A stretch of DNA of 64,000 nt from a virus. The position numbers were made by a program, and so were the translations under genes. Positions 6,603 through 60,675 of this stretch are shown piece after piece. How positions within the stretch are numbered: the stretch's first letter is position 1; every line of letters starts with the position of its first letter. The stretch lies in the IMG/VR virus record IMGVR_UViG_3300042516_005475, positions 62,001 through 126,000 of that record; one strand, written 5' to 3'. Under the pieces are notes generated by a model, which did no database searches, was not told the origin of the DNA, and saw nothing but the letters and a program-made list of their open reading frames with translations.

Positions 6603-6603
6603 T

Positions 6604-10928: not shown

Positions 10929-10929
10929 T

Positions 10930-12738
10930 ATGGCTACAGGTGTTTTTCCAGAATTCAAATTAGCTCCAAATGCCTATACAGCATTTGACGCCACTAGTCT
11001 TAAGCGCTTAATGATTGAGCGTCTTAACACTCCATCAAATACCGTTTTTACAGATCAGAATTTTGAAGGCAGTAATTTAAATGCGATAATTGATATTGTA
11101 GCATATTCCTACCAGACATTACTCTTTTATCTAAACCAAACATCCAGCGAATCTGTTTTCACAGAGTCTCAATTATATGAGAACATTAACAGAATTGTAA
11201 AGCTTCTAAATTATAACCCAGTTGGACCTCAAACCTGTGCATTACCTTTCGTAGCTAATTCCTCATTACTGAGCGCTGGTGTTTATACAATTCCAAGATA
11301 TTCATACTTAAACGTAAATGGTATTAACTATACTTTTACTAATGATGTTACTTTTGAGAAAACAACTCAAGCAGGAATTAATGAAACCTTAAAACAATTT
11401 AGCTCTACTTATTTGCTCTATCAGGGTAAAATGGTTGAATATCCAACACAGTCCTCTGCTGGAGTAGCATTCGAGACTATTGCTCTATTACCAGGCAATT
11501 CAGTTATTGTTGATAACTTTAATATTTTTGTTTATGTATTTGAAAGACAAACAGGAACATATGTTGAATATAGAAGAGTGGATAGCTTATTCTTATATGG
11601 TCCTCAGGATAGAGTTTGTGAGATTAGATTAAACGAAAATAAGCACTACGAAGTTAAATTCGGAGATAATATTACTGGTCGTCAGTTACAAGGTGGAGAT
11701 TTAATTGCGTTGTATTTCTTACAATCTGATGGAGTAGATGGTCAAGTTAACTCTAACAAGTTAAATGATACCGCAATTTCTCTTTACAACACACCTAGAT
11801 TTAATCAAATTTTCGCTTCTGTAAGAGATGAAAATTTGACATATTTAACTGCTTTACAGGTATTAGGTCTTAATATTAATAACGAGGTAGACTCAACAGC
11901 CTTCTTTGATGCTGAAACAGTAGAATCAATTAGAACAAGAGCACCTCAAACATTTACATCTCAATACAGATTAGTAAATGCTACTGACTATGAAAACTTT
12001 GTTTATACAAACTTTGCTAGCTTTGTATTCTCTACAAAAGTATTAAGCAACTCACAATATTTAAATTCTCATTTAAAGTATTTGACAGACAACTTAAAAC
12101 TAAATGACCCAAATTTAGATACAAATGTATTATCTAATCAAATACTGTTTTCTTCTTCTTGTAATTTTAACAATGTTTATATCTATTGTGTACCAAAAAC
12201 ATCTGCATCTAAAATTACCACGATTACAAAGAATAACTTCGTAACACCAGCTCAAAAGAACTTTGTTATTTCAGCTATTAATTCAGTAAAAACAGTAACC
12301 GCTGAACCAATAATTATGGATCCAGTTTATATGGCATTTCAATTTGGATATGGTTCAAGCGTAGACGACTCTGCAATTCAAGATACTAATTTCGGTGCTA
12401 GGATAATAATAACAACAAACCCTAATATTGTTGTAAATAGAGACAAAATTAAGAGTGTTATTATTAGTACAATTCAGAGTTATTTTGATTTACAATCTCT
12501 AGGTGGTACTGTAAACATAACTGACTTAAATGCTCAAATTCTTGATATTGCTGGGGTACAATCAATTCAAACTGCTAATATAAATGGAGCTAGAAACGGG
12601 CTAAGCTTCGTTTACTATAATTTTCAATACCCAAATATCGATGTAAAATCTTCTGTATCTTCTGTTGTACTTCAAGATTTTATGTTCCCATATTTGCCTG
12701 ACTACTTTACCTTATCTAACTTAATTACTATTCTCTAA
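10930..12738 (+). CDS. Baseplate wedge subunit, gp6-like
   Basis: A 602-residue baseplate J-type wedge protein, the analogue of T4 gp6 (660 residues), which forms the inner iris of the baseplate and binds gp25. Seen: the N-terminal DATSLKRLMIERLN region, a TDQNFEGSNLNAIIDI phrase typical of gp6 proteins (Phe-Glu-Gly-Ser-Asn followed by an Ile/Asp/Ala/Tyr helix), a middle beta region, and the C-terminal GGTVNITDLNAQILDIAGVQ region in which two J-like domains usually lie. It starts one base after the gp25-like stop (TAA-T-ATG) and overlaps the start of the next gene. Confidence 0.75.
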   Translation: MATGVFPEFKLAPNAYTAFDATSLKRLMIERLNTPSNTVFTDQNFEGSNLNAIIDIVAYSYQTLLFYLNQTSSESVFTESQLYENINRIVKLLNYNPVGPQTCALPFVANSSLLSAGVYTIPRYSYLNVNGINYTFTNDVTFEKTTQAGINETLKQFSSTYLLYQGKMVEYPTQSSAGVAFETIALLPGNSVIVDNFNIFVYVFERQTGTYVEYRRVDSLFLYGPQDRVCEIRLNENKHYEVKFGDNITGRQLQGGDLIALYFLQSDGVDGQVNSNKLNDTAISLYNTPRFNQIFASVRDENLTYLTALQVLGLNINNEVDSTAFFDAETVESIRTRAPQTFTSQYRLVNATDYENFVYTNFASFVFSTKVLSNSQYLNSHLKYLTDNLKLNDPNLDTNVLSNQILFSSSCNFNNVYIYCVPKTSASKITTITKNNFVTPAQKNFVISAINSVKTVTAEPIIMDPVYMAFQFGYGSSVDDSAIQDTNFGARIIITTNPNIVVNRDKIKSVIISTIQSYFDLQSLGGTVNITDLNAQILDIAGVQSIQTANINGARNGLSFVYYNFQYPNIDVKSSVSSVVLQDFMFPYLPDYFTLSNLITIL

Positions 12739-17065: not shown

Positions 17066-17082
17066 TAGAAATAACAAAAATA

Positions 17083-17090
17083 GATAAATA
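17083..17090 (+). promoter_or_regulatory. Late-type promoter box GATAAATA
   Basis: Ends 6 bases before the ATG at 17097; the predicted transcription start is the base before the ATG. Confidence 0.5.
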
Positions 17091-17096
17091 ATTTCG

Positions 17097-19409
17097 ATGG
17101 TTTGCTCTGTACCTAACTTAACTGGATCTTTTGGAAGCTGCGCGCAAGACATTGTTGCAAGCGATTTTAACAAAGATTCTGTGTTTTGGTATATAGAAAA
17201 TGAAGATTCTGTATACAATTTTAAGCTAACTCTCTGCCCTTTCCTATCAGCTACACCATTAAAAATTGTTTATCCAGAAATTGAAATTTTTAATTTAAAG
17301 ACGTTTAATAAAACATACGCTTTCCCTTCATTTAACACAGTTGACGAGCAATCTTTTCCAAGTTTACTACCATTCTCTGTTAATAGCTTACCAAGCGGAG
17401 CAGAGTATAATATAAAAAGTATAGACCAACCAGTATTAAGTTACAACTCAATTAATAACATTTTTGATTTATCTTTTATTGGTAGATTTCCTGCTGGAGT
17501 AGAGGGTTTATCAATTTTTAATTACCGTTTCTTAAAGAATAATCAGACAGTTAATCCTTACGCAATAAACATTTATACTCCAAGTCAGTTTATTTTCTCT
17601 TCTAACTTTGCTGATGGTTATTTCTCTAAGTTCTTAGATTTACAAACATATCCTAAGAGTGTTGGTTTTTATGTGTTGCCCCTTTCAGTTAATACAATAG
17701 AATATCCTTGTAATTATGAACCCCCCTGCCAAAGTATTACAGCTGTTCACAATTTAGCTAATGACAGCTTAAAGTTTAACTCTGCTAGTGTTGATACTTT
17801 AAGCACATTTGGTAACAATGTTACTTTTTTAAACTATGTTTGCGGTTTTAACCCTGATAAAGACATACAGATAGTATTTGATGCTGCAGCTTATATTTTT
17901 AATAATGAGCAGGTTTTAGGTACAGTTAATAGTACAGAAATTTGTTCTGCTAGAACAGTTACTAATTTTACTAGAGGGGGAGCAGGAGAAGGTTTTTGTG
18001 TTTATTTTTACCAATTAACAAGCTTTGCTGATTTTATTGGTTCAGGACCAGCTTCTTGTTTTGGCTATGCTCCTGGCTCAGCTGTTGATGTAGACTACTT
18101 AAACGGAACACCTATGATGTTTCCGTTTGGTATGTATGGTGGTTATTTGGGGTTAGGTTTTGATATTGGTGGAGATTTCGGTACTCGTTTACATGGAAAA
18201 AGTGCTGTTGGGTCTGCTTCTCCTAATGCAAAACGTCCAAACACTATTACATTAAGAAGCAGTCAATTAGATAATTTTAATGTTTTAACAACAACAAATA
18301 ATTTAACAGCATACAATTTATATCTTGCACAACAAGTCACTTCTGTAGATGAAGTTAAGTTTAACACCTACAAAGTTGTATTAGATAATCACGGCAAAAG
18401 AATTAGAGCAAGTGTATTAGATTGTCTTTCAAACGAGTTTATAGATATTTTTTGCTATGAGGTTGACTTTGCAGATGGCTGTGATGCTTCTCCTTCAATT
18501 TTATTTCCTGGAATAAGCTTTTCTACAAGTGAATATACATGTAATTTTGAAATTAAAAATGTTTCATTTATAGGAGCCTTAGCTGACACTGAAGCAGATG
18601 CTTGTGGTAGAGTGCGTATACCAACACCAACTCCAACCTGCCCAATCTTCCTGCTATCTCCTACACCTACACCAACAAGTTCTGTTACACCAACACCAAC
18701 ACCTTCAATATCAGTATCTTCTACAGTTACACCAACTGTCACACCTACAAATACAGTAACCCCAACTTTAACACCTACAAAAACAGTTACACCTACAAAT
18801 ACTGTTACACCTACTCCTACTTTAACTCCTTTATACTCCCCAACCCCAACAAGTACTGCAACTCAAACAGTTACACCTACACCTACCATTACCCCAACTT
18901 TAACAGTTACACCTACAAAAACAGTTACACCTACACCTACCATTACCCCATCAGTAACAGTTACTCCAACACCATCCCCTGCTGCAACAAATGTGTATTG
19001 TTGGTTTACTCCTTCAATTTACATTTATCTTTCTAGCTTTGCCTCTTGTAGAGCTTATTTTACTGCTAATGGTATTTCTGAGCAATCAGGTGGAGTTATT
19101 ATTAGGAGTAATATTGCGGCGCTGGGTGGTATTGATTTAACCAAGATATTAAGATTTATTTTCAATAGACTGCCAACTGTTTCAAATATTTCTAGTACTA
19201 ATAATTGGGGTATATATGGATCAACTACACCAAACTATTATGTAAACTACACATACGATTCTGGTAATAATGATTATACTGTTGACATTTATAGAACAAG
19301 CGATAATGCTAATATTGCCAGTATTTCAAGCTTATCGTTCGTAAATAATGATGCAGCTCAGGAATCGTTTATAGCCTGCCAGTGTTTGTATGTAGCCTTA
19401 TACGTATAA
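17097..19409 (+). CDS. Fibre protein: L-type-lectin-like domain, Thr/Pro linker, recurring C-terminal domain
   Basis: A 770-residue multi-domain protein. Residues about 1-290 are beta-rich and unknown. Residues about 290-500 look like a legume-type (concanavalin-like) lectin fold: [10 protein letters not shown], then [15 protein letters not shown] and [10 protein letters not shown], matching the G-F-x-Y, F-D and N-x-I strands of that family. Residues about 508-630 form a Thr/Pro/Val linker. Residues about 631-770 (Tyr-Cys-Trp start, paired Cys, NWGIYGSTT) are a domain found three more times in the 3,533-residue fibre. Carbohydrate binding, hence receptor recognition, is inferred. The start is set by the late-type box. 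Confidence 0.65.
18618..18988 (+). repeat. Thr/Pro/Val linker repeat
   Basis: Degenerate tandem repeats coding for TPTNTV- and TPTPTI-like units; period about 18 bases. The strict use of ACA/ACT, CCA/CCT and GTT/GTA codons makes the opposite strand open in several frames. Confidence 0.8.
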
Positions 19410-19410
19410 T

Positions 19411-21150
19411 ATGAATAGAGTAAGCTCAAATTTTTATTTTGCCCCATCTTCAACCCAGACAAATTATCTTTCGTCTGGTAACCTAAGCGCTTTCTCTACT
19501 ACTAACTTTTCTCTTTCTACTGATGGTTTAACTAATCTTGTTTTAAGCTTATCAAATGTTCAAGAAAATTTTGACAGATATCAAAAGGTATTAGTTGATT
19601 GGGGTCAAGGCAAGGAGTATTATGAGGCTACAATTAACCCAATTTCTACTCAATCTATAAGTGATTTTATTTTTCAAAACTTTTTTACTACATCTTCTAC
19701 TAATGACCCGAACACCTTTAACGTTTCATTAAGTTTATTTAGATTGCCTTTTAATAATGTTTTTGATACAATTAATATTGATCTTAACATTTTTCAACCA
19801 AGCTTTACTGACGAGTATAATATAAAGTTATTAAAAAACTATAACTATTATGACCCAGATACTAAGATTAATAATTTAGTATTATTTATTGAGCAGCAAA
19901 ATAATAATGGTATTTCTGTTGTTTATAATGAGATAGGTAATAATTTAACTAATTTTGTTGATACAAGAATTAGTGCAGCTCTTGTAAATTTTGTACCAGA
20001 TGTTTCCGTAGAAGGCATCGCTGAGTATCATTTAAGTGCTTGTGATTGTAACGGATTACTAGCAGTAAATAGAGCCTCTGATGGTGTAGGACCAGCAATG
20101 GTAATTGTTACAGCCTTAACAGCAGACTTTTTATATACTTCTAGCACTAATACAGTTTATTATCCAGTAACAGGTTTTACATATTCAGCCTTGACTGAAA
20201 CAGCTAAAGTGATTAATTGGAGCTCTAATGAAACAGGTATAAAGTACTTCTCGGTACCGATTTATGTACCTGACTTATATGTAAATACACCTCAGTTCTT
20301 CTTAGTAACAATTGAAAATCTTTTTAACACTTTTGTTGACCCAACTTCAACACAGGCGTTTGTATTATTAGACCCATATTCTGATTGTATGTTAGATATG
20401 GAACCATGTGGAGTTGCTCCTATACCATCCCCAACAGTTACACCTACAATCACTCCTACAAATACAATCACTCCTACAATCACACCTACAATCACACCAA
20501 CGACTGGTTTATCTCCAACTGTTACCCCAACTGTAACCCCAACTAAAACTGTAACCCCAACTGTAACCCCAACTAAAACTGTAACCCCAACTTCTACCCC
20601 TACAGCTACCCCAACTGTAACCCCAACAAAGACATTAACACCTACTAACACAGTTACACCACCAGCTACAGTCACGCCAACAGTTACACCAACCACAACA
20701 CCACCAGCTACAGTTACACCAACAGTTACAGTCACCCCAACCGCAACACCACCAGCTACAGTTACACAAACAGTTACAGTTACTCCTTCACCAACACCTC
20801 AAGATCCAACATGCGCAGAGGCTTTGCAATTAGTCACCCTTACAGTTTATAACCCTTTCTCGGCAACTGTAACAGATTTAACTTGGTCAATTAATGACAC
20901 TGAAGAATCTCAGATGGCTATTTTTGCTACTCAACCGCTATCTGTTAGCCAATATGGAAACCCAACAATTGGAATAGTACGGTCTTGTTGTACTTTTGAT
21001 GATCCAACATGGAAAATAACATTCTACTGGACAAGCCCTGATGGGAAAGGACCCCAAAACTTTGTATTCCCTGATGATGTTTCTGATGGACCTTGGACAG
21101 TTTGTACATATGGAGCGCTATATAGTACATGGCAGGTCAATCTTAGCTAA
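19411..21150 (+). CDS. Fibre protein with Thr/Pro linker and Cys-bearing C-terminal domain
   Basis: A 579-residue protein. Residues 1-335 are beta-rich with no recognised family. Residues about 339-464 are a Thr/Pro/Val linker. Residues about 465-579 form a compact domain with C-x-E near its start, a central SCCTF Cys pair and a late Cys, which resembles the C-terminal domain of the 1,242-residue protein at 28590-32318 (same order of C-x-E, NPF/NPY, double Cys, FYW/FYT and final Cys). It starts one base after the previous stop, so it is probably co-translated with the lectin-like protein. A fibre or decoration role is inferred. Confidence 0.6.
   Translation: MNRVSSNFYFAPSSTQTNYLSSGNLSAFSTTNFSLSTDGLTNLVLSLSNVQENFDRYQKVLVDWGQGKEYYEATINPISTQSISDFIFQNFFTTSSTNDPNTFNVSLSLFRLPFNNVFDTINIDLNIFQPSFTDEYNIKLLKNYNYYDPDTKINNLVLFIEQQNNNGISVVYNEIGNNLTNFVDTRISAALVNFVPDVSVEGIAEYHLSACDCNGLLAVNRASDGVGPAMVIVTALTADFLYTSSTNTVYYPVTGFTYSALTETAKVINWSSNETGIKYFSVPIYVPDLYVNTPQFFLVTIENLFNTFVDPTSTQAFVLLDPYSDCMLDMEPCGVAPIPSPTVTPTITPTNTITPTITPTITPTTGLSPTVTPTVTPTKTVTPTVTPTKTVTPTSTPTATPTVTPTKTLTPTNTVTPPATVTPTVTPTTTPPATVTPTVTVTPTATPPATVTQTVTVTPSPTPQDPTCAEALQLVTLTVYNPFSATVTDLTWSINDTEESQMAIFATQPLSVSQYGNPTIGIVRSCCTFDDPTWKITFYWTSPDGKGPQNFVFPDDVSDGPWTVCTYGALYSTWQVNLS
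20425..20802 (+). repeat. Thr/Pro/Val linker repeat
   Basis: Tandem units coding for [10 protein letters not shown] and PPATVTPTVT; period about 18 bases with point variation, joining the N- and C-terminal domains of the 19411-21150 protein. Confidence 0.8.
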
Positions 21151-21183: not shown

Positions 21184-22473
21184 ATGAGTTCCGCCTCTAA
21201 CGATAAGATTTTTTGCCAAATAGCTGCATATAGAGACCCCCAACTAATCCCAACGCTTAGAAGCATGATTGACAATGCTTCGAACCCAGACAACCTTGTA
21301 TTTTGTATTGCCTGGCAACGCGACAAGAGAGATGAGTTTGATAATCTAGAGATTTTTAGCCAGGATCCTAGATTTATTATTATTGAAATTCCTGCTATGG
21401 AGAGCAAAGGAGCCTGTTGGGCTCGTAACTTAATCCAGCAGCGCTATAATGGGGAAGGTTATACTCTTCAAATTGACAGCCACATGCGCTTTGTAAAAGA
21501 TTGGGACAGTAAATGCATCAGTATGATTAAGCAGCTACAAGAAACTGGCTATGAAAAGCCTTTGTTAACAAGCTATGTTAGCTCTTTTGACCCTGATGAT
21601 GATACTAAGTTTGTAAAAGAGCCATGGAAGATGAAGTTTGATCGCTTTATTCCAGAAGGAGCAATATTCTTCTTACCTGAAACAATTGATGAATGGCAGC
21701 ACTTAACAACACCTGTAAAGGCTAGATTCTATTCAGCTCACTTTTGCTTTACTTTGGGCACAATGTGTCAAGAGGTTCCACATGACCCAAATTATTATTT
21801 CCATGGTGAAGAAATTTCAATTGCTGTAAGAGCCTTTACTCACGGCTATGATTTATTCCACCCACATATGATTATTTGCTGGCATGAATATACTCGTAAG
21901 GGTAGAACCAAGCATTGGGATGACCACGTTGAGTCAAATAAAGAGGTGGTACCGTGGCATATTCGTAACAATGATTGCCACAAGCGTAATAGATGCTTGT
22001 TTAGCATGGATGGTGAGAAACATGAGTCTGTTGATTGGGGTATGTATGGTTTTGGTACTAAGCGTACTCTAAAAGATTATGAGGACTATGCTGGTATTAA
22101 TTTTAAGCTAAGACTTGCTCATAAGTTTACTACAGACAATGTTGATTATCCTCCTAATCCAATTGTTTATAAGAATGATGAAGAGTGGAAGTCTAAGTGC
22201 TTGAAGAATTACGACATACAGGTTCAGATAAAAGAAGAATATGAAAATAACCCAGACGTTCTATTTTGGTTCTTTGGAGTTCACAACGCCTCTGGAGATG
22301 AATTGTTCAGAAAAGACTTTACCTATGATATGTTAGAGAAGATTAGAAATGAGAACATTAAGTCTGAACTTGTAACAATTCGCACTAATGATAAGCCCGC
22401 TAAGTATATTATTTGGGTGCACAAGAAAGAAACCGGTTGGGGGCAAAGATTTGAAATACCAATTAACGTATGA
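21184..22473 (+). CDS. Polypeptide GlcNAc-transferase-like glycosyltransferase (PF11397/GT60 type)
   Basis: A 429-residue cytosolic GT-A enzyme. Seen: FCQIAAYRDPQLIPTLRSM at the start, then SKGACWARNLIQQ and LQIDSHMRFVKDWD, where D-S-H is the metal/nucleotide-sugar site, and FHGEE further on. This order of signatures is that of PF11397. Its characterised eukaryotic member, Dictyostelium Gnt1, transfers GlcNAc from UDP-GlcNAc to a hydroxyproline of Skp1. Donor and acceptor here are not known. The gene lies among four Thr/Pro-rich fibre genes and is followed by a second glycosyltransferase whose start overlaps its stop (ATGA). I infer that it modifies a fibre protein; modification of a host glycan is the alternative. 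Confidence 0.82.
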   Translation: MSSASNDKIFCQIAAYRDPQLIPTLRSMIDNASNPDNLVFCIAWQRDKRDEFDNLEIFSQDPRFIIIEIPAMESKGACWARNLIQQRYNGEGYTLQIDSHMRFVKDWDSKCISMIKQLQETGYEKPLLTSYVSSFDPDDDTKFVKEPWKMKFDRFIPEGAIFFLPETIDEWQHLTTPVKARFYSAHFCFTLGTMCQEVPHDPNYYFHGEEISIAVRAFTHGYDLFHPHMIICWHEYTRKGRTKHWDDHVESNKEVVPWHIRNNDCHKRNRCLFSMDGEKHESVDWGMYGFGTKRTLKDYEDYAGINFKLRLAHKFTTDNVDYPPNPIVYKNDEEWKSKCLKNYDIQVQIKEEYENNPDVLFWFFGVHNASGDELFRKDFTYDMLEKIRNENIKSELVTIRTNDKPAKYIIWVHKKETGWGQRFEIPINV

Positions 22474-24146
22474 ATAACGAAGTAACATTTGTAACAGGTC
22501 TTTGGGATTTAGGTAGAGATAAAATTGGAGGTGGTTTTAGGAGAGATTTTAACTCTCATTACCTGCCACAATTTCAAAACTTACTTGCTCAAAATATTAA
22601 TTTAATTATTTTTTGTGATAAAGATGTAGAAGAGTTTGTGTGGAGACATAGAGAACCTCGTAACACCCTTGTTATTAACAAACCTCTTGAATCCTTTAAA
22701 ACAAATTTTGATTTTTACAATCAAGTCCAGAATATTCGTAACAAACCTGAATGGAAAAATCAGGCTGGTTGGTTAGCTGACAGCCCGCAGAGCTCTCTTG
22801 AATATTATAACCCAGTTGTAATGAGTAAGTTCTTTATGTTGCATGATAGCTGCATAATGAACCCATTTAATACTGAGCATTTTTATTGGATTGATGCAGG
22901 TATTTCATCTACTGTTAACCTAAGTTATTTTTCAACATTTAATGTTCATAATAAACTTTCAAAATACATTTCCAGTTTATTGTTTGTTTGTTTCCCGTAT
23001 GATGGACAAGTAGAAATTCATGGGTTTACTAAGAGTAAATTTAATGAGTGCTGTAATGCTGACTCACAATATGTTGCAAGAGGTGGTTTTTTTGGTGGTA
23101 AGAGTGACTATATTAAGAAGTTTAACCCCAAATATTATGATACTCTTCGCTCTACTTTAAGTGAGGGTTATATGGGTACAGAGGAGAGTATTTTCACAAT
23201 TCTTTGCTATCTTTACCCAGAAGATATTTGCAGAGTAATGATTGAAGATAATGGTTTGCTTAATACTATATTTGAGGCTCTTAAAAACGACTCTATTGTA
23301 GTAGAAAGACCTATAAACTCTAAAAATTTTAAAATTCCAACATTAGAAGAGATTAAAATTTATGTATTAACATTCAATAGCTGCTCACAACTTGAATTGC
23401 TATTAAACAATTTTACTATTACGTATCCTGAATTGATATCAATTAAAGATAAAGTATTAATTAACAATAGTACAGAAAGAAGCTATGATGAGTGCTATAA
23501 AGAAATAGCTGATAAATATGGGTTCACTATTCAAAACTTCGACAACATTGGTATTTGTGGCGCGCGTCAATGGGTAGCTGAAGATTTTGAAAAATCTGAT
23601 AAGAGTTATTATATCTTCTTTGAAGATGATATGTTGTTTAATACTGATTTTACTTATTGTAAGAATGGTTTTAGCACCAAAGCTAATGATTTGTTTAACA
23701 AGAGCCTTAAAATTGTTGAAAAAGAAGCATTAGACTATCTTAAAATAAGCTTTTCAGAGTTTTTTGGTGGTAATAACCAACAGTGGGCTTATTGTAATGT
23801 GCCTCAGCAAGTAAGGCTAGATAATTTTGGTGATTTAAAGCTACAATTTCCAAGAGATTATGACAAGATTCCAGGGACTGTTACTTATTCTATAGGCTCT
23901 TTTGAAGGATTGCCATATGCTATTGGGGAGTTTTACTATTGTAACTGGCCATTACTGTTCACAAAACAAGGCAATCGCAAGGTTTTCCTTGATACTAAGT
24001 GGGGACACCCGTATGAACAAACATGGATGTCGTATGTATTTCAGGAGCAGCGTAAGAAAAACATAAAGGCTGGTTGTTTGTTACTCTCTCCAATAGCTCA
24101 TAACAGAGTTTATTTCTATAAAGCACAGGATAGAAGAGAGAGCTAA
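22470..24146 (+). CDS. Two-domain glycosyltransferase: HtrL/YibB-like plus GT2-like
   Basis: A 558-residue protein. Residues about 1-270 resemble the HtrL_YibB family (PF09612): TFVTGLWDLGRD at the start, a conserved Asp-rich strand (HFYWIDAGIS) and GGFFGGKSDYI. Residues about 285-550 form a second GT-A-like part, IKIYVLTFNSCSQLELLL followed by a YYIFFEDDM phrase whose Asp-Asp would bind the metal ion, and a GICGARQW motif. Overlap with the preceding GlcNAc-transferase-like gene (ATGA) implies coupled expression and a shared pathway, such as extending a sugar added to a fibre. The substrate is unknown. Confidence 0.7.
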   Translation: MNNEVTFVTGLWDLGRDKIGGGFRRDFNSHYLPQFQNLLAQNINLIIFCDKDVEEFVWRHREPRNTLVINKPLESFKTNFDFYNQVQNIRNKPEWKNQAGWLADSPQSSLEYYNPVVMSKFFMLHDSCIMNPFNTEHFYWIDAGISSTVNLSYFSTFNVHNKLSKYISSLLFVCFPYDGQVEIHGFTKSKFNECCNADSQYVARGGFFGGKSDYIKKFNPKYYDTLRSTLSEGYMGTEESIFTILCYLYPEDICRVMIEDNGLLNTIFEALKNDSIVVERPINSKNFKIPTLEEIKIYVLTFNSCSQLELLLNNFTITYPELISIKDKVLINNSTERSYDECYKEIADKYGFTIQNFDNIGICGARQWVAEDFEKSDKSYYIFFEDDMLFNTDFTYCKNGFSTKANDLFNKSLKIVEKEALDYLKISFSEFFGGNNQQWAYCNVPQQVRLDNFGDLKLQFPRDYDKIPGTVTYSIGSFEGLPYAIGEFYYCNWPLLFTKQGNRKVFLDTKWGHPYEQTWMSYVFQEQRKKNIKAGCLLLSPIAHNRVYFYKAQDRRES

Positions 24147-28000: not shown

Positions 28001-28597
28001 TTTAACTATTATGTGTCAGATGTAGCAGGGGATGTAGAAAAGATTACTTTACAGGCTAATTTAGAAACATTAGCTAACCAAGATTTATTCTTTACATTTA
28101 CTTTTAATTCTCTTACTGGTGGTTCTAAGCTCTATATTAATAGTATCTTGGTTGAAGAATCTGATACTACTAATATTAAGTATTCCAAGACCCCTATCTC
28201 TGGTTCTATAGCCTTAAATTCTATTTCATTGACTGACCCAGCCTTTGAGTCTACTCAATTCAAGTGTCAAAACCTTGAGATGTACGGTATAAAGGCCTTC
28301 AACACAGTGTTATCAAAATATGATATTAGAAATCTGTTTATTAGATCAGCTAGAATTACAGATATAAACTGGAACGTTCCAGCAGGCAAGAGAAACATAA
28401 CTGAAACCATTCAGCAGAACTTTAAGTTTAGTTTACCAGGTTATAAGACCAACTTGTTTGATATTATTGTTTCAGGAGCTCAAGGATTAAACGATGTACA
28501 AAGAGAAGCAATTGCTGAAAAAATAAGAGAGTACATAAAGGGTAACATTCCGATAAATACTATTATTAACGAGGTTAACATCAGAAGTAATGAATAA
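25061..28597 (+). CDS. Very large fibre/baseplate protein with a LamG-like domain
   Basis: A 1,178-residue, Asn/Ser/Tyr-rich protein. Residues about 820-900 contain NVTTDNSGNIYLISDNGTD, a propeller-blade-like phrase. Residues about 985-1110 look like a concanavalin/LamG fold: FTFNSLTGGSKLYINSILVE, then LEMYGIKAFNTVLSKYDIRN, matching the G-x-x-LYVNG and raised-loop plus D-I strands of LamG. The last 80 residues are helical and charged (EAIAEKIREYI), perhaps an oligomerisation or docking end. The gene overlaps both neighbours. A carbohydrate-binding fibre part is inferred. Confidence 0.5.
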   Translation: MNVLNLSALIPMEVEYSLDGNVNLTNNITNYFYGLNLYSTELFNFARDLSINYYNTFILTDKLDKPDFLTLSEPITASYPKTISTTVQCVGLSSTGLGFWEDYAANYSSTSPYLSCGEGIFSTGSIWNLGSWNMYDIEFLNANQCYISKLRNNNSVLTQLQTKEYLGPAFTEDVNYLTFSSTPYTFNYIYNEQNNTIVFYFNYAPNGSSSNSLFLITQEENRVVLKSVDEYVISDLGLYNLSAVFCLSYRDANTRLAEFTTNYNAYKRTYFPTAETSLCDSYDGLKNNYLVSSNVVFTDNKFLVNFQPLKNQLDLNYNFTATNSFIGQPFDNRDYQSIVSGTDQELGFPNLTLTFYTYNAPITFKKGALTYFHFPVSATPFDKLNVNDSTLVDCGSFAGQNPLDADKVFKKLLPTVAGNNIDKNQTGTYLCTWLYISAFDSRPIWMDRYYNPNFTSLQTAYTQNFNSDFVNTVTTLSAKNFTYFDKVSDLTFEPNSTYSYYRLSEADIARINNNLYENQINSDVINVYDANLNLQQAGAASFEYGFNTGSLVQKTSASGDYSICFNIKSKDFKKKFGNTLLNNFYNLNGLNITNYDNLNNLILFTSGSEIVVSNTNFDSLRNVKVLLEKSIFKTPDALLSIDFNNNVEGFYVTSISTLSSNVGINLNVGPNTSDFYLSKLDKNFTTLNTILLTSFSGGTYNFVSSNIDDTYYYALFNTFNTQVAATNQNYFLIKYPLSGMLLSQPINTPVNLQLPRYGSVNGNSITISDFTLCRSTYNFILSAGLPVYYLTDYANNSICSDVNNRAWYIYNNILYHSVTDLGNLDGFNLSYLKDSNNNQTITNVTTDNSGNIYLISDNGTDSYLYKLDNNRKPIYFQSLSSSFGAPTTKYLDILYVNNNGVIEPRPYVIYDPYQPSSLSARSFKEVNVFDASGNLIYIKPLEYETDTFNISNQNRKGFRRTLSNVEQVNNLFEVDGNPIKFNYYVSDVAGDVEKITLQANLETLANQDLFFTFTFNSLTGGSKLYINSILVEESDTTNIKYSKTPISGSIALNSISLTDPAFESTQFKCQNLEMYGIKAFNTVLSKYDIRNLFIRSARITDINWNVPAGKRNITETIQQNFKFSLPGYKTNLFDIIVSGAQGLNDVQREAIAEKIREYIKGNIPINTIINEVNIRSNE

Positions 28598-31500
28598 TCT
28601 ATATTCAGTTGTATCAAATTCATTAGGGTTCAACAGAGCAATTTCTATTGAACCAGAAAAATTCCCTGTATTGCTAGAGGATATTTTAATCAAACCTAAT
28701 GATTTTCTAACAGAGAATAATTTTAACTTTTCTCTATCCTGCTTATATCAAGACTTTTTGTCTATTGTAAGTGATAGCTATGTTTATAGTCCCAATTTTC
28801 CAGTAACAAACCCGTTTTTTGATAATATTAATAACATTGTAGGTACTCTTTGTGGTACATTAGTTCCTTCTAACTATTCAACTGAAGGAACAGCTTCTAT
28901 TAGATATTTTGTAAATGGTATTCCGCACAGTAATGCAGCTTTTAACATAATTTACAACACTCATGATTTCGTTATCAGTGGTAATTATTTGACTTTAGCA
29001 GTAGGTATTTTAAGCACTACAACTTTATCTCCTATTCTTTCTTCTAATGTTTATTATCCTGCTTTAGGAGTTTATAACTACCCTCTTTCAGCTATTTTTA
29101 ATAATGGAGAGGTAACAAATAGTAGTGAATTTCCTAATCAAGGTTTCCAAGAAAGCGCTGTTGTACCTAATTTTGGTGTTGTAACAAAGTTCTTAAATAA
29201 GAACTTGAATTTAAAGTATAACTCAATTTCAAAACTTAAGATAGCCAATGAAAGGTTGTATGTTTTAGATAATATTAGTAACAAGTTTTTAATTTACGAC
29301 ATTAGTGATGTTATAGTTAATAGAACAAATAAAACAACTTTTGAGGTACCGCTTGAAACATTAGGTTTCGCAACATCTTCAAGAACAAATATAAGAAAGA
29401 TTAGCTCTTTTTGTGTTAATGAGAACTATGTTGTATTCTTTAACTATGTTAACAACGCTCTTTCTATTTTCTCAACTAATTTAAACCAGTTATATGATTA
29501 TTCTCAAGACAAAGTATCTGTTTCTGGGTTTAGAAATACAGAAGTATTTGCAGATATAGAGTTTGATCCGTTCGGTAATTTGTATTTGTTAACGCAAAGT
29601 GGCACTGTTTATGTTTATACAGTTTCAAATACCGCTTTAACAAGAGTAAAAACATATAATATCCAACCACAAAACACAAACGTATTTTCTTCTTTATCTG
29701 CAATTCAAGTTACCTATCAGAAAGAGATATTTAAAAAGATATCATTCTCAAAATCTGATACAAATGTATTTTATGTATCTACAGATACTAACATCTACAA
29801 GAGATTTGTAGATAGAAATGTAAACATTGGTCAGTTTAATAACTTTGTTAATAACACAACATATTATTCTACTCTAAGTAATATTGCTGACCCATTTAAT
29901 ACGTTAATGGGTTGCTGTTTTGCTGAATATCCTGCTGAAAAGACCTCTCTAGACTTTTTAAAGTATCAAATTAATAGCACTAACAGTATTAGTTATAACG
30001 GTTATGAGATTTTTTCTGTATGCTTTACAGATAACTGTACGTACGCCTCTCAAAACGCTGGCCCTGGCTTTGTTTTAAATGTTGGTTCATATGGTTCAAT
30101 TGATTTTTTAACAGCTAATCTAACATATGGATTAAACCCGGTTTCTGCCTCTGGTATTACATTTGTTGTAGATAGGCCTAACTATATAAATTTAAATAAT
30201 GACGATTTATCAGCTGTTCTGGTTTATTCCTTTGATGACATCAAGGTAAAGGCAGATGAATTCATTACAGACTTTACAATAAACAAGTCTTTGCGCAAGC
30301 TGTTATATAATATTTTTAATTATCAGACTTATCAAGCCTTTAAACCTGTTGTAGATATTGATATTAACAATAATGCAATTTATAAAAAGCTTGATTACAT
30401 TGTTTCTTACAATAAAAATCAAAATATTACTAATTTTGATAATTTTATAGGTATAAATGAAATTACAAGCACAGTATTTTTAAATAGATGTTTTACTAAA
30501 GTTTACGAATTGCTTGCAACAATGCAAGCCAATTTTAACTCTAGAGTAATTAATATCTACCCTAGATATGCAGATTCAGTTTTGTTAAACCAAACAACAC
30601 AAAAATATGCATCGTTTTATAATGATAGTGAGACGTTTATTACTGGTGAGTTTGACACTGAAATTGAACCTTTAAATCCTAATCTCTGTGTTGTTGAGAA
30701 TGCTAGTACAATTGTAGTGTCTCCAACACCATCCCAGACCCCTTTAGTTTCTCCAATAGTCTTTGTTACACCTACACCTACACCAGCCCCTTCTCCTACA
30801 ATGCCGCCAACACCTACATCTTCCGGGTATGTGTTGGTGAATAAATCTATTCAACATGTCGCTACAGTTTATCTAAACAACGAGTACGAAATTCCAGTAC
30901 CAATAGCACCTTTCCCAAACTACGACATTAAGCCTCTTTCAGCTATTTATGATGGGACAGGAATTGATACTATTGTTTCAGAGTTTAGTGCATATTTTGA
31001 CCAGGGAGAGTTTTATATTGAGCTAGCTAAAGTTAACGGTGATTATGAAAAATTAGTAGGTAAGCAATTTGGTGATTACATACTTCAGAGTTATACACCA
31101 TCGAATAATAGTGAGTTTATTTTAGGGGCAAGAACGTGTTTACAAGAAACACACACCATAGAAAGTTTATCTCCTACACCAACACCATCTATAACCCCAA
31201 CCAATACAGTTACACCTACAGTAACACCGACTATTACCCCAACTAGTACAGTTACCCCTACAGTAACACCGACTATAACTACAACACCCGCTAATACAGT
31301 TACTCCAACCAACACTGTTACCCCTACAGTAACACCAACTAACACTGTTACTCCAACCAATACGGTTACACCTACAGTAACTCCTTCTGTAACCCCAACA
31401 ACAGGTCTTTCTCCAACACCAACTCAAACAATAACCCCTACAAATACAGTTACTCCTACAGTAACACCAACTAACTCTGTAACCCCTACAGTAACACCAA

Positions 31501-32318
31501 CCAATACAGTTACACCAACCAATACAGTTACACCAACAAACACAGTAACCCCAACAGTAACACCACCAGTTACAGTAACACCAACTAACTCTGTAACCCC
31601 TACAGTAACACCAACCAATACAGTTACACCAACCAATACAGTTACACCAACAAACACAGTAACCCCAACAGTAACCCCAACAGTTACAGTAACACCAACT
31701 AACTCTGTTACTCCAACAGTTACAGTAACACCAACAGTAACACCACCAGTTACAGTAACACCAACTAACTCTGTTACTCCAACAGTTACAGTAACCCCAA
31801 CAGTAACACCACCAGTTACAGTAACACCTACAGTTACAGTAACACCACCAGCTACAGTAACACCTACAGTTACAGTAACCCCAGCAGCTACAGTTACTCC
31901 AACACCAACCCCCTCATCCCCACAATCTTGCCTTGAGCCCCTAACAACAGTTAGATGGGTATTGTGGAACCCTTACAATGATACAGACCCTTCGACTTTA
32001 GTTAATGCTGTAGTTAATTATACTCTCTCTAATAATTCAGGTAGCTCAACTTTCGGTTCCGGTACTCAATCCGTTCCAGTTGGAGCTTTTGGACAATCAC
32101 CAGCTGGTACATATTATACTTTAGGTACAACAAGTGATTGTTGTTCAGCGCCTTATACAGGTACTTTATTTTACACCTTATCTTGGGTAAATAGTTATGG
32201 GGTTTCTCGAGCAAATCGAGATATACCAGATTATTCAAACTCAGAAAACTACTGTAGTTGGGCAGCATCGTTACCTGTAGAGAGTGGTTTACCGACGTTT
32301 ACTTTAACTCTTAGTTAA
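28590..32318 (+). CDS. Fibre protein: propeller-like body, two Thr/Pro linkers, Cys-rich end domain
   Basis: A 1,242-residue protein starting within the end of the previous gene. The body (to about residue 700) contains NHL/WD-like strands such as FDPFGNLYLLTQSGTVYVY. A short Thr/Pro linker (about 710-745), a small domain of about 110 residues and a long Thr/Pro/Val/Asn linker (about 860-1110) follow. The final 130 residues form a Cys-bearing domain (C-L-E-P-L, DCC pair, FYTLSW, Tyr-Cys-Ser-Trp) that resembles the end of the 19411-21150 protein. Modular build and position suggest a tail-fibre subunit. No enzymatic motif is visible. Confidence 0.6.
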   Translation: MNNLYSVVSNSLGFNRAISIEPEKFPVLLEDILIKPNDFLTENNFNFSLSCLYQDFLSIVSDSYVYSPNFPVTNPFFDNINNIVGTLCGTLVPSNYSTEGTASIRYFVNGIPHSNAAFNIIYNTHDFVISGNYLTLAVGILSTTTLSPILSSNVYYPALGVYNYPLSAIFNNGEVTNSSEFPNQGFQESAVVPNFGVVTKFLNKNLNLKYNSISKLKIANERLYVLDNISNKFLIYDISDVIVNRTNKTTFEVPLETLGFATSSRTNIRKISSFCVNENYVVFFNYVNNALSIFSTNLNQLYDYSQDKVSVSGFRNTEVFADIEFDPFGNLYLLTQSGTVYVYTVSNTALTRVKTYNIQPQNTNVFSSLSAIQVTYQKEIFKKISFSKSDTNVFYVSTDTNIYKRFVDRNVNIGQFNNFVNNTTYYSTLSNIADPFNTLMGCCFAEYPAEKTSLDFLKYQINSTNSISYNGYEIFSVCFTDNCTYASQNAGPGFVLNVGSYGSIDFLTANLTYGLNPVSASGITFVVDRPNYINLNNDDLSAVLVYSFDDIKVKADEFITDFTINKSLRKLLYNIFNYQTYQAFKPVVDIDINNNAIYKKLDYIVSYNKNQNITNFDNFIGINEITSTVFLNRCFTKVYELLATMQANFNSRVINIYPRYADSVLLNQTTQKYASFYNDSETFITGEFDTEIEPLNPNLCVVENASTIVVSPTPSQTPLVSPIVFVTPTPTPAPSPTMPPTPTSSGYVLVNKSIQHVATVYLNNEYEIPVPIAPFPNYDIKPLSAIYDGTGIDTIVSEFSAYFDQGEFYIELAKVNGDYEKLVGKQFGDYILQSYTPSNNSEFILGARTCLQETHTIESLSPTPTPSITPTNTVTPTVTPTITPTSTVTPTVTPTITTTPANTVTPTNTVTPTVTPTNTVTPTNTVTPTVTPSVTPTTGLSPTPTQTITPTNTVTPTVTPTNSVTPTVTPTNTVTPTNTVTPTNTVTPTVTPPVTVTPTNSVTPTVTPTNTVTPTNTVTPTNTVTPTVTPTVTVTPTNSVTPTVTVTPTVTPPVTVTPTNSVTPTVTVTPTVTPPVTVTPTVTVTPPATVTPTVTVTPAATVTPTPTPSSPQSCLEPLTTVRWVLWNPYNDTDPSTLVNAVVNYTLSNNSGSSTFGSGTQSVPVGAFGQSPAGTYYTLGTTSDCCSAPYTGTLFYTLSWVNSYGVSRANRDIPDYSNSENYCSWAASLPVESGLPTFTLTLS
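31165..31920 (+). repeat. Long Thr/Pro/Val/Asn linker repeat
   Basis: About 750 bases of tandem 18-base-type units coding TPTNTV and [10 protein letters not shown] variants. Larger blocks containing PPVTVTPTNSVT recur within it, a sign of segmental duplication. Confidence 0.85.
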
Positions 32319-32380: not shown

Positions 32381-35300
32381 ATGGAATACGATAAGCCAGC
32401 AAAAATTGTATGGGTAGCTAAGCTATCAGCCACTGGGTTATATGATACTCCATTTTTAAAAATCGTTGACCCAACTACAGCACCTCAAAATATAGTCAAT
32501 GAATATACGGATTTAGGGTTAGAAAACTATACAATAAATAATTATTTTGTTAATACAAATTTACTTTTTAGTATAACAGATAATGAATTAAACACTAATA
32601 GAAAAACCTTTAACTGGACTTTTAGTGCCTATAAGGGACCATCTCAGGCTGCTTCTGCAATGATAGCGGTTAATTATTTTAACAATTATACTGCTAACGA
32701 TATGGGGTTGGTTATTAATTATAATAACCAGTATCTATCCCCACCATTTTATTTTGATCCTTATGAAACAAGCCCTAACCCTACCGCTTCTAAAACATTT
32801 ATAGTTCCTGCTGGTGCTCAAAATTTTCCTATACCGCTATGGGTGAGAGTAAATGATGGTTCTGCCATATCAACTTTTACATGTTTAGTTTGTACTAACC
32901 CTTCTATTATTTTAACTAATAATATTGCGAGATATTCCAATATATTTGTTACCCCATCACCAACACCAACAAATACAGTTACTCCAACTACTGGATTATC
33001 TCCAACTGCGACTCCTACTAATACACCTACCAACACCGTAACCCCTACAAATACCCCAACCAATACTGTTACTCCTACAAATACTCCAACCAATACTGTA
33101 ACACCAACAGTTACTCCAACTAATACTGTAACAGTAACACCCACTATCACCCCAACCAACACAGTTACTCCAACCAATACAGTAACACCAACCAATACTG
33201 TTACACCAACTAATACTGTTACACCAACAGTAACACCAACAAATACTGGTACTCCAAACAATACAGTTACACCAACAAATACAGTAACACCTACAGTTAC
33301 ACCAACCAACACAATCACCCCAACCAACACAGTAACACCAACCAATACAGTAACACCAACCAATACTGTTACACCAACTAATACAGTAACACCAACTAAT
33401 ACGGTTACCCCTACAAATACTGTTACTCCAACCATTACACCAACCAATACAGTAACACCAACTAATACAGTAACACCAACTAATACAGTAACACCAACAA
33501 TTACTCCTTCCAACACAGTAACACCAACCAACACAGTAACTCCAACAATTACACCAACAATTACCGTCACTCCTACAAACACAGTAACACCTACAATTAC
33601 TCCTTCCAACACAGTAACACCAACCAACACAGTAACACCAACAATTACACCAACCAATACTGTTACACCAACCAATACTGTCACACCTACCAATACAGTA
33701 ACACCAACAATTACTCCTTCCAACACAGTAACTCCAACAAATACGGTTACTCCAACTAATACAATTACACCTACAAATACGGTTACACCTACAAATACTG
33801 TTACACCAACAGTAACAGTAACACCAACCAATACAGTAACACCAACCAATACAGTAACACCAACAATTACTCCTACACCACCACAACCACCGAGCAAGAG
33901 AGCGATATTTGGTTTCGGTAGTACAACTTTTGGTGGTTTTGGGTCTCCTACTTCTCTTTCCAACATAGTATCAGATACTGGTGTATTGGCTTCAGATGTA
34001 ACTAATGTTGGTACGTCTGCTAGACTTTATCTAGCTGCTGCTAGTTTTGGTGATGGTTTAGCTATTTTTGGTTTCGGTTATAATAATGGTAATGCTGTTG
34101 GGGTGTATAACCCTGTAAATAATAGCGGAGAAATTGGAATTGATGATACCCGTGGTAGTTTTACTGCTAGATATCAGTTAGCGGCTGCAAGTTACGGTGG
34201 AGATAAAGCAATATTCGGGTTCGGTTCCACAACCTCAGGAGTAAGTTCTATTACAAATCTGGTAGATAATTTAGGTCAAATGGGTAATAATGTATCTACT
34301 GTTGGTACAGCTAGAAATAACCTCGCCGCTGCAGGTTATGGTACAGATAAAGCTATATTTGGTTTTGGTTTTTCAACAGCTATAACAAATATAACAAACC
34401 TTGTATCCAATACTGGTGTAATAGCTGCAGATGTAACAACCATTGGTACAGCAAGACAGATATTAGCTGCAGCTAGTTATGGTGGAGATAAAGCTATTTT
34501 TGGTTATGGTTATACTTCAAGCTTTGTTTCTTTAACAAATGTAGTAACTAACACAGGAGTAGTTGGAAGTGATGTAGGAGGGATTGGAACAGCTAGAGGC
34601 TATCTAGCAGCAGCAGGATACGGAACGGATAAAGCAATATTCGGGTTTGGTATAAACGGGTTTGGTGGTTCTACTTTGTCAATGACAAACCTAGTATCTA
34701 ACACAGGTGTTGTTGCTAATGATAATAGTACAGTTGGTACAGCTAGAATGGGTTTAGCAGCAGCAAGCTTCACTCAATATTTTGCACCTTCTCCAACACC
34801 TACTCCATCTATAACACCTTCTGAGACAGTTACACCAACAATTACTCCAACGGTTACACCTACAAATACGGTTACCTCAACCAATACAGTAACACCAACA
34901 ATTACCCCAACCAATACAGTTACACCAACAATTACCCCAACCAATACAGTTACACCAACCAATACAGTTACCCCAACAATTACACCAACCAATACAGTTA
35001 CACCAACCAATACAGTTACACCAACCAATACAGTTACACCAACAATTACCCCTACACCTGGAGCTACATCTACACCAACCAACACAGTAACACCAACAGT
35101 TACAGTTACACCAACCAATACAGTTACACCAACCAATACTGTTACACCAACCAATACTGTTACTCCAACAATAACCCCAACAAACTCATATACTGGTCCA
35201 GATAGAGCTATATTTGGTTTCGGACAATCATCTGGAAACACAGGTACAAATATAACTAATTTAGTTTCAGATACTGGCGTTGTAGCTTCTGATCTTTCTG

Positions 35301-38300
35301 GAGTAGGTACTGAAAGATCGCAACTTGCTGCTGCAAGCTATGGTTTTGATAAGGCTATTTTTGGTTATGGTGGTGGTCCATCCAACGCCTACAATAATGT
35401 TTCTACTTTAGTAAACAATTTAGGTGTAGTAGTTACTGATCAATTAGGTGTTGGTACTGGCAGAAAAGGTCTAGCAGCAGCTGGTTATGGTTACGATAAG
35501 GCGATTTTTGCTTTTGGGCGAACCTCTTCTGGAAATGTAAATATTTCAAATCTTGTGACTAATTTTGGTGTTATTGGCACAGATAATGCAAGTGTAGCCA
35601 CTTCTAAAGAAAACTTAGCAGCAGCTGTTTATGGTTACGATAAAGCAATTTTTGCATATGGTAGTAATTCAGGTGTTACAAATACAACCAACATTGTTTC
35701 AAATCTAGGAGTAATTTCTACAGATACAGCAGGAGTAGGAACAGCAAGATCAAGTCTCGCAGCAACAGGTTATGGCATGGATAAGGCAATATTTGGTTTT
35801 GGCTCTACAACTATTAATGTAAATATTACCTCGTTATTTTCAAATACAGGCTCTTATGTTAGTGAGAGTTCTGGTGTCGGTACTGCTAGAATTTATCTAG
35901 CAGCCACAGGTTACAATCAAGATAAAGCAATATTTGGTTTTGGTTTCGCTGGATTCTTTGCCTCCATGACAAATCTTGTTTCTAATATTGGCAATATTGC
36001 TGCTGATAATAGTACAGTAGGTACTGGAAGGTATGGGTTAGCTGCTGCAAGATTTGGTGGTATACTTCCAACTCCAACAGCTACTCCAACAGTTACTCCA
36101 ACAGTTACTCCAACTACCGGGCTATCTTCTACTCCAACTAATACAATTACACCAACTAATACAGTAACACCTACAATAACACCTACAATAACACCTACAG
36201 TAACACCTACCAATACAGTTACACCTACAATCACTCCAACGATTACTCCTACTCCAGCACCAATACAAAATTATAGTGGTATTTTTGGTTTCGGTACAAG
36301 TACTTCTGGAGGGAATACATCAATTACTAATTTATTAGTATCTAACATTGGTATTCTTGAAAATGATGTAACTACTGTTGCTACTGCCAGAAGTGAATTA
36401 GCAGCAGCAACTTACGGTACAGATAAAGCCATATTTGCTTTTGGGTATATTAACTCTGTCGGTGTTCAAAATATATCTAATTTAGTAACTAATGAGGGAG
36501 TTGTTGGAACCGATCAATCAACAGTAGGTACTTCTAGAAACCGTCTTGCAGCAGCTGGTTATGGTATAGATAAAGCTATTTTTGGTTACGGTTATAATGG
36601 AGGCTATTTGTCATTGACAAATATAGTTACTAATACCGGTGTTGTTGGTAGTGATCAAGGGGGGATTGGTACTGCTAGAGCTGATCTAGCAGCTGCTACT
36701 TTTGATAGAGATAGGGCAATTTTCGGTTTTGGAACTAATAACACTAATTTGTCAATGACAAATATAGTTACTAATACCGGTGTTGTTGGTAATGATGTAT
36801 CAAGTATTGGTACTGCTAGAAGAGGTCTAGCAGCTGCTACTTATGATGTAAATAAAGTTATATTTGGTTTCGGTAGTGTAGGAATTAGTGCTCCTGTATC
36901 AATAACCAATTTGGTTTCTAATACTGGTATTGTTGCTTCTGATACCTCTAATGTTCAAACAGCTAGAAGCGGTCTTGCTGCAGTAAGTATTGGTACTGAT
37001 AGAGCTATGTTTGGTTTTGGCTTTAGTAATACTGCTACAAATATTACAAATCTAATTAGTAATTTAGGAACAATTGTTACAGAAAATTTTGGTACTGGCA
37101 CTACAAGATACAGTCTAGCAGCTGCGAGCTTTGTTTATGTAGCCCCTACACCTTCCCCAACAATTACTCCAACAATTACTCCAACAATTACTCCAACAAA
37201 TACAGTAACACCAACTAATACACCTACCAATACAGTAACACCTACAGTTACACCTACCAATACAGTTACACCAACGAATACACCACCAAATACACCACCA
37301 CCTCAATCAGATAAGAGCGCAATATTTGGATATGGTACCAATGGTAGTTTTGGAAATAACTTATCAATGACCAATTTAGTATCTAACGCTGGTGTTGTTA
37401 CTATAGATCAAACCGGGGTTGGAACTGCAAGATATGGTTTAGCTGCTGCAAGCTATGGTGGAGACAAGGCAATATTTGGATATGGTTATGTTTCAGCTGG
37501 GTCTGGAGTACAGAATATAACCAACAAAGTTTCAAATCTTGGTATAGTTGCTAATGATGATGCTGGTGTCGGTACTCAAAGATTCTATTTAGCTGCAGCT
37601 ACCTATGGTACTGATAAAGCAATATTTGGATATGGTCAAAATAGTTCATTTGTTGGAGTTACAATAACCAATTTAGTGAATAACATTGGTAATGTTGCTT
37701 CAGACGTAACTAGTGCTGGTACTGCAAGAAGCGCATTAACATCTGCTAGCTACGGTTACGATAAGGCAATATTTGCTTTAGGTAACGGAAGTGTAATTAA
37801 TAAGATTTCAAACACTGGTATTGTTGCTTCAGATTCAAGTGGTACACCTCCAACAGCTCGAAATGGTGCTTTCGGTGCTGGGTATGGTTATGATACAGCT
37901 ATACTTGGTTTTGGTTATGATGGAACACATTTAAATACTATAACACTAATTAACAACCAAGGAGACGTTGTCACTAATACTACTGGAGGTGGTTCTTCTA
38001 GAGCTTTTGGTGCTTCAGCAAGCTATAGTACTGATAAGGCAATATTTGGTTATGGTAGTACTACTAGTTCTGCTTCGTCTGTAATAACTCTTATTTCAAA
38101 CACAGGTACAGTCGCATCAGAATCATCCGGAGTTGGTACAGCAAGAAGCAGTCTAGCTGGAGCAAGCTATGTTTCTGGTATTGCTCCGTCACCTACAGCT
38201 ACAACAACAATTACACCAACAGTAACACCTACCAATACAGTTACACCAACCAACACAGTAACACCAACTAACACACCAACTAACACAGTTACTCCAACAG

Positions 38301-59892: not shown

Positions 59893-60675
59893 ATGACGGT
59901 ATTACATCAGGATATTGGAAAGGTAATCCAGCCTAAAATTAATCCAAATCTCATTATTCAGGAACTAGCTAGTACATTTAAATCTACTGGCAGATTAGAA
60001 ATTCCTGAATTTTTAGATGCTGCTACTGCTGATCATATGCATTATTTTTATAATGAACTGTATCCTTCAGAATGGTGGTCTTCCTCAAGTGTGCCAGCCA
60101 TATTTAAAAATTATGTAACTAACACTGAGATCTATGATGAGTATAATCAAGGAGATCGTTTTCAAAACACTCCTGATAATCAGGCTGCAATTAAAATTAC
60201 ATACGAGGCAGCTCATAAGGCTAATGGGGAGGGTAAATTTGCATATTTCTTCTATAGATCTTTTAATGATCACCCAGTAGATTGTGTTTGTCAAGAATGT
60301 CAGCTAACTAGATTCTTTAGCGCTCCTGAGTTTATAGTGTTTTTAAATGCTATTACTGGTAATACACTGAATATTGTTGCTCCCTTTACAATTTTTACTA
60401 GCAAATACTCTCAAGGCTGCTTCCTTAATACCCATTCTGATGATATGAATGGTAAACTAGCCTTTGTCTATCATCTTACTAAGGATTGGAGACCTGACTA
60501 CGGTGGCTTATTTACAGCTCAAGATAAGGATAGAAACGTGCTAAAAACCATTGTTCCTAGCTTTAACAAGTTTGTTTGCTTTAGAGTTGGAGATTATGTT
60601 ACTCCTCATAGTGTCACTCAGGTTTCTCACCACGTACAGAAGCATAGAATGTCGTTAACTGGTTGGTATAAGTGA
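59893..60675 (+). CDS. 2-oxoglutarate/Fe(II)-dependent oxygenase, prolyl-hydroxylase-like
   Basis: A 260-residue cytosolic enzyme that would couple decarboxylation of 2-oxoglutarate to hydroxylation of a substrate. The iron ligands are visible: His181-x-Asp183 (in NTHSDD) and His239 (in TPHSV), with Arg252 placed to bind 2-oxoglutarate. The GG strand (WRPDYGGLFTA) matches prolyl 4-hydroxylase relatives (2OG-FeII_Oxy_3). The gene ends the collagen-like fibre cluster, and the fibre is full of X-Pro-Gly, the animal hydroxylase target, so it is a good candidate to modify it. DNA-base or other protein modification is the alternative. A weak TTGATT/TACATA promoter may precede it. Confidence 0.8.
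   Translation: MTVLHQDIGKVIQPKINPNLIIQELASTFKSTGRLEIPEFLDAATADHMHYFYNELYPSEWWSSSSVPAIFKNYVTNTEIYDEYNQGDRFQNTPDNQAAIKITYEAAHKANGEGKFAYFFYRSFNDHPVDCVCQECQLTRFFSAPEFIVFLNAITGNTLNIVAPFTIFTSKYSQGCFLNTHSDDMNGKLAFVYHLTKDWRPDYGGLFTAQDKDRNVLKTIVPSFNKFVCFRVGDYVTPHSVTQVSHHVQKHRMSLTGWYK

Follow-up and report, generated by a model that had tools for sequence, protein, structure and literature searches.

At positions 21184-24146 of the analysed virus DNA, two overlapping genes probably encode a mucin-type O-glycosylation module, in which a phage-encoded alpha-HexNAc-transferase would modify threonines in the repeats of fibre proteins and the sugar chain would then be extended. The basis of this reading is the family of the first enzyme, its predicted fold, its invariant candidate catalytic residues, the gene linkage and the co-occurrence of the gene with Thr/Pro repeats. 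Positions refer to the window, the whole stretch of 64,000 nucleotides analysed (it spans bases 62001-126000 of a virus record 230 kb long).

The locus and its two glycosyltransferases

The following genes of the window, all on the plus strand, are of importance here:

10930..12738, plus strand, gp6-like baseplate wedge protein (weak PF21379 match, under its cut-off)
17097..19409, plus strand, putative Thr/Pro-repeat fibre protein (repeat region 18567-19016)
19411..21150, plus strand, putative Thr/Pro-repeat fibre protein (repeat region 20389-20817)
21184..22473, plus strand, GT60/PF11397-type glycosyltransferase, 429 aa, proposed polypeptide alpha-HexNAc-transferase (profiles, predicted fold, invariant residues)
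22470..24146, plus strand, HtrL_YibB (N-terminal) and GT-A-like glycosyltransferase (C-terminal), 558 aa, proposed glycan extender (profiles, gene linkage)
28590..32318, plus strand, putative Thr/Pro-repeat fibre protein (repeat regions 30705-30851 and 31128-31967)
32381..42982, plus strand, putative giant Thr/Pro-repeat fibre protein, 3,533 aa (nine repeat regions with 575 Thr inside them)
54443..58564, plus strand, collagen-like fibre protein (Gly-X-Y repeats), 1,373 aa, outside the proposed module (PF01391, E 6e-123)
59893..60675, plus strand, 2OG-Fe(II) oxygenase, OGFOD1/Tpa1-like, outside the proposed module (PF13661, E 4e-19; OGFOD1 in the PDB, E 2.5e-10)

The first transferase ORF begins 33 bp past the end of Thr/Pro-repeat ORF 19411-21150 and overlaps the second by 4 nt. 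Two Thr/Pro-repeat ORFs lie upstream of the pair and two downstream, the latter separated from 22470-24146 by two ORFs, which bears out the original prediction that two glycosyltransferases lie between Thr/Pro-rich fibre genes. Together, the repeat regions of the four flanking ORFs span 2,009 aa, among them 809 Thr and 378 Pro, and Pro comes straight after Thr at 323 sites. No more than seven of the 259 ORFs in the whole 230-kb record are of this type; three further Thr/Pro-rich ORFs reside on the minus strand outside the window and away from the transferase (record coordinates 6118-7494 and 216520-220257). Baseplate-wedge-like genes (10449-12738) are situated upstream of the Thr/Pro-repeat ORFs, and the product of 10930..12738 resembles gp6 of T4-like cyanophages (tblastn, E down to 5e-22), placing the glycosylation module in the tail/baseplate region. 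From position and composition we infer that the Thr/Pro-repeat ORFs encode fibres. An ORF on the minus strand of the window (62827-63912) resembles GT9 (heptosyltransferase-type) proteins by eye and gave no Pfam match at E 0.01; an annotated GT9 gene is also found near the corresponding module of the cultured phage XacN1.

Judged by its profile match, the 21184-22473 product is a strong PF11397 member (E 8.4e-73, 246 bits, cut-off 21), and both motifs from which this identity had originally been proposed, CWARNLIQQ and LQIDSHMRF, are present; phrog_24687 is matched with an E of 5e-159. In an alignment of phage and bacterial sequences, all 79 relatives retain residues D98, H100, E210, R216 and H234 without exception, and D98/H100 would constitute a conserved DxH-type motif and candidate metal site. 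By motif resemblance, D98-S99-H100 (DSH 98-100) may be the DxH metal motif of GT27 and G208-E209-E210 (GEE 208-210) may be the equivalent of the GGEN motif of GalNAc-transferases. An AlphaFold2 model built on the alignment of the 79 phage and bacterial relatives reached a mean pLDDT of 94.4 and a pTM of 0.89, and an earlier model from 13 sequences (pLDDT 57) was set aside. When the PDB was searched by fold, ranks 1-32 were all taken by polypeptide GalNAc-transferases (GT27), the enzymes that start mucin-type O-glycosylation, several of them solved with a bound mucin peptide; E values went down to 1.6e-11, and GT27 structures outranked every other GT-A enzyme. Only the fold search matched, as single-sequence and profile searches of the PDB with the same protein gave no meaningful match. 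The TM-scores to GT27 are modest (0.43-0.51) and were counted against the main reading, although such values would be as expected for distant relatives. The model predicts a GT-A fold related to GT27. Residues ~330-429 form a beta-rich C-terminal domain outside the PF11397 profile, which is retained in the phage relatives and is possibly a substrate-binding module; many bacterial matches end at residue 310-350.

In the 22470-24146 product, the N-terminal half belongs to PF09612 HtrL_YibB (E 8e-16) and the C-terminal half weakly matches the phage glucosyltransferase family phrog_842 (E 5e-6). Of the 35 non-redundant viral loci whose flanks are long enough, 31 encode a relative of this HtrL_YibB-GT protein at most 8 kb from the GT60 gene, and the same holds for 8 of 42 bacterial loci of this kind. 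In cultured phages, GT60 is confined to three records, XacN1, CM1 and RAS14, and so is a full-length HtrL_YibB-GT copy. Elsewhere, GT60 loci encode a GT25 protein (E 1.3e-12) and more transferase-like ORFs. Extension of the first sugar would be the simplest role for the HtrL_YibB-GT protein. A carbamoyltransferase gene adjoins the GT60-type gene in XacN1 (15418-17715, annotated) and in locus L169 (1009-2442, by resemblance), where additional hydroxylase-like ORFs come next. Comparable clusters in cyanophages have been interpreted as capsule or metabolite genes (PMC7824862); they might decorate virions instead.

Linkage of the transferase gene to Thr/Pro repeats

Viral relatives of the GT60 gene were collected from 80 loci by sequence and from at least 599 by alignment. 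In 47 loci out of the 90 that have an upstream ORF (95% non-redundancy), the ORF directly preceding the transferase gene is a Thr/Pro-repeat ORF in the same orientation; in 59 such an ORF occurs within three ORFs upstream. The median gap between the upstream repeat ORF and the transferase gene is 73 bp. Clustering at 80% identity lowers immediate adjacency to 12 of 40 loci, a drop that we counted against the mucin-type reading; 17 of these 40 have a repeat ORF within three ORFs upstream and 23 have one within three ORFs upstream or six downstream. Neither Thr/Pro-rich ORFs nor GT60 occurred among the 1,196 ORFs of 120 random viral loci. Relatives of the phage's ribonucleotide reductase, intended as a matched control, yielded two loci only; random-pattern loci, together with eight named jumbo phages, took their place.

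In whole-record searches, DNA coding for TPTxTPT turned up in 36 of the 44 records that carry the transferase, among them every one of the 16 that reach 100 kb, each with at least nine copies, as opposed to 4 of 25 random records, unmatched for genome size and habitat, with one to three copies each; the reversed pattern, serving as control, occurred 0-1 times per strand. XacN1 and RAS14 contain 51 and 22 copies, respectively, along with a PF11397 gene, whereas eight jumbo phages related to XacN1 (the RaK2 group and allies) have neither TPTxTPT nor PF11397. In the reverse direction, PF11397 was found in 8 of 29 records chosen for TPTPTPTP-coding DNA versus 0 of 21 controls (Fisher p 0.015, a value that ignores relatedness, as do all p-values here, most loci stemming from related metagenomic phages). 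The other 21 of the 29 records, some of them fragments, lack PF11397, and this was counted against the mucin-type reading. Compared outside their repeats, the Thr/Pro ORFs closest to the transferase gene form 12 groups that show no detectable similarity to one another; what the gene tracks is therefore the repeat rather than a single fibre family. Co-occurrence and adjacency with the transferase gene are strong, and a Thr/Pro-rich protein would be the candidate acceptor.

A tree of bacterial and viral GT60 relatives features no monophyletic viral clade and at least five changes between bacteria and viruses, with XacN1 and RAS14 placed beside Burkholderiales and one phage beside Verrucomicrobia. 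As the tree stems from a short search and has long branches, it serves only as an indication of repeated transfer of the gene. In bacteria, 12 of 57 GT60 loci (80% clusters) include a Thr/Pro-rich ORF a few genes away at most, those of Jiulongibacter (L344) and of Paraburkholderia (L367) being examples, which is a hint that the type of substrate is shared by bacteria.

The oxygenase and alternative substrates

The original prediction combined a GlcNAc-transferase with a hydroxylase at 21184-24146 and envisaged modification as in Skp1. In such a pathway a prolyl hydroxylase would act on prolines of the phage repeats, and GlcNAc would then be attached to the resulting hydroxyproline by the GT60 enzyme. 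The transferases indeed reside there and the phage does possess both enzyme types, but the oxygenase gene (59893-60675) lies within the window outside these coordinates, ~36 kb away and three genes past the collagen-like fibre gene. Gnt1, the Skp1 enzyme, belongs to GT60, the phage oxygenase is akin to the prolyl hydroxylases OGFOD1/Tpa1 and the repeats are rich in Pro. Yet the placement of the oxygenase, far from the transferase and after the collagen-like fibre, recurs in the two closest relatives; of 26 transferase-bearing records six contain PF13661 and eight PF13640, and both families are absent from XacN1 and RAS14, which are deposited as complete genomes. The co-occurrence of oxygenase and transferase in related phages, proposed as a check, is therefore small. 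Around the strongest oxygenase matches in two other records there are no nearby Thr/Pro or collagen-like ORFs, and OGFOD1 is described as a prolyl 3-hydroxylase acting on a ribosomal protein (PMC4396695). Distance and patchy co-occurrence leave an obligatory Skp1-like hydroxylation step unsupported, and we consider such a two-step pathway very unlikely. The collagen-like fibre is a likelier partner of the oxygenase than the transferase module, and Pro at the Y position of Gly-X-Y may be its more natural substrate; oxygenase and fibre could form a phage collagen prolyl-hydroxylation pair. In both closest relatives (L085 and L086), a collagen-like ORF is likewise found a few genes upstream of the oxygenase.

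Other targets of the transferases are conceivable. They could act on host lipopolysaccharide, capsule or another surface polymer, for example to block superinfection, with the fibre genes as incidental neighbours: GT25 and HtrL_YibB are known chiefly from bacterial surface-polysaccharide genes, related bacterial genes are widespread and in some loci the transferase cluster lies away from repeat ORFs. This is unlikely in our view, because the predicted fold is nearest to protein O-glycosyltransferases and the spacing to the fibre ORFs is operon-like and tight, while co-occurrence with the repeats on genome scale and joint absence from relatives would be left unexplained. Glycosylation of modified phage DNA is highly improbable. 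It would accord with the weak similarity of the C-terminal domain of the 22470 protein to DNA-glucosyltransferase families (the phrog_842 match) and with a TAGT match in one relative (E 0.007, under cut-off), but the first enzyme's predicted fold is nearest to polypeptide transferases, and a search of the 230-kb record, which is possibly incomplete, gave no match to PF00303 (thymidylate-synthase/dCMP-hydroxymethylase-type) although control genomes matched. A Tet/JBP search of 16 records was without match, as were its controls. Were the GT60 enzyme to act on a collagen-like or other fibre, the Thr/Pro repeats would merely mark fibre-rich regions. Eight of 92 transferase loci do contain collagen-like ORFs, as against none of the 120 random loci; nevertheless, Thr/Pro-repeat ORFs are found in 72 of the same 92, and jumbo phages of the RaK2 group, reported to have tail fibres (PMC5852040), contain neither the repeats nor the gene. 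There is thus little probability that the enzyme serves such a fibre.

Proposed pathway and relation to known systems

Glycosylation of phage-particle proteins has been little studied, and mucin-type O-glycosylation is usually held to be eukaryotic. In the pathway that we favor, the 21184 gene product would be a polypeptide transferase of the GT60/GT27 type with a GT-A fold and a retaining mechanism, putting an alpha-linked HexNAc, probably GlcNAc from host UDP-GlcNAc, directly on Thr in the Thr/Pro repeats of tail/baseplate fibres. The HtrL_YibB-GT protein, in relatives also GT25 and other transferases, would extend or decorate this first sugar, and the fibres would turn mucin-like, forming extended rods that resist proteases and present a sugar surface. 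We infer which residue accepts the sugar, which donor supplies it, in what order the steps run and what the phage gains. Direct O-glycosylation of Thr in the linkers, the other route in the original prediction, is supported by the GT27-like predicted fold, the Thr-modifying GT60 enzyme of T. cruzi and the repeat co-occurrence. Predicted structure and comparative genomics together make a well-supported case for phage mucin-type O-glycosylation of Thr/Pro fibres, and we suggest that the Skp1 analogy be dropped.

GT60 comprises Skp1 Gnt1 and the UDP-GlcNAc:polypeptide alpha-GlcNAc-transferase of T. cruzi (PMC6939170), and reviewers describe it as kin of GT27 and as the family that initiates mucin-type glycosylation in protists (PMC8724618). 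In assays on KPPTTTTTTTTKPP, the T. cruzi enzyme depended on Mn2+ and formed alpha-GlcNAc-Thr (PMC3769586). Compared by family, the phage enzyme shares with its T. cruzi and Dictyostelium counterparts the family itself and the proposed chemistry, alpha-GlcNAc on Thr of Thr/Pro-rich mucin-like proteins, but those act in the Golgi and on cell-surface mucins whereas the phage gene is found in a large phage beside fibre genes. GT27 enzymes provide the best PDB fold matches, and the phage enzyme has a DxH motif, yet identity over the fold is ~12%. With Skp1 Gnt1 and its prolyl hydroxylase the phage has the GT60 family and a 2OG oxygenase in common; the phage transferase differs in being unlinked to the oxygenase and rarely co-occurring with it. 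Mycobacteriophages also glycosylate their own structural proteins (Freeman et al. 2023, as described in PMC12619734), but there the sugars are reported to be carried C-terminally by capsid and tail-tube subunits, whereas the module described here would involve Thr/Pro-repeat fibres and a mucin-type fold.

XacN1 ORF334 is a homologue of the 21184 protein with 49% identity and is called a glycosyltransferase in the XacN1 paper (PMC5852040). In that study, proteomic analysis is reported to have revealed at least two glycoproteins, which its authors suggest are made by phage transferases, and its main text names no mucin-type family, partner transferase, Thr/Pro link or sugar-bearing proteins. The study detected no homologues of tail fibres in XacN1 (PMC5852040), and the repeat proteins of this phage may therefore belong to different parts of the tail or baseplate. 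A short Thr/Pro-rich region terminates both XacN1 ORF325 (3,313 aa) and the corresponding RAS14 protein (3,138 aa). Our literature search, which covered freely available papers, did not find GT60 together with phage, and Thr/Pro fibre O-glycosylation of phages was not found among the matches listed. The ingredients are known separately, from protists and, as regards virion glycosylation, from mycobacteriophages (PMC12619734); a description of the combination was not found within this scope.

The evidence leaves us evenly divided on a broader proposition, namely that mucin-type O-glycosylation is widespread in large phages, that a transportable module of a GT60 initiator with HtrL_YibB-GT and other extenders coats non-homologous Thr/Pro fibres with sugar, and that prokaryotic and viral GT60 belong to the wider ancestry of animal and protist mucin initiators. 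XacN1, RAS14 and CM1 are cultured phages with the same genes, which makes the mucin-type reading testable. If it is true, at least several hundred aquatic phage contigs (at least 599 stretches) carry an initiating enzyme, the giant Thr/Pro-repeat fibres could be explained, and studies of mucin chemistry would gain enzymes from bacterial cells. Sugar-coated fibres would then bear on phage adsorption, protease resistance and immune recognition.
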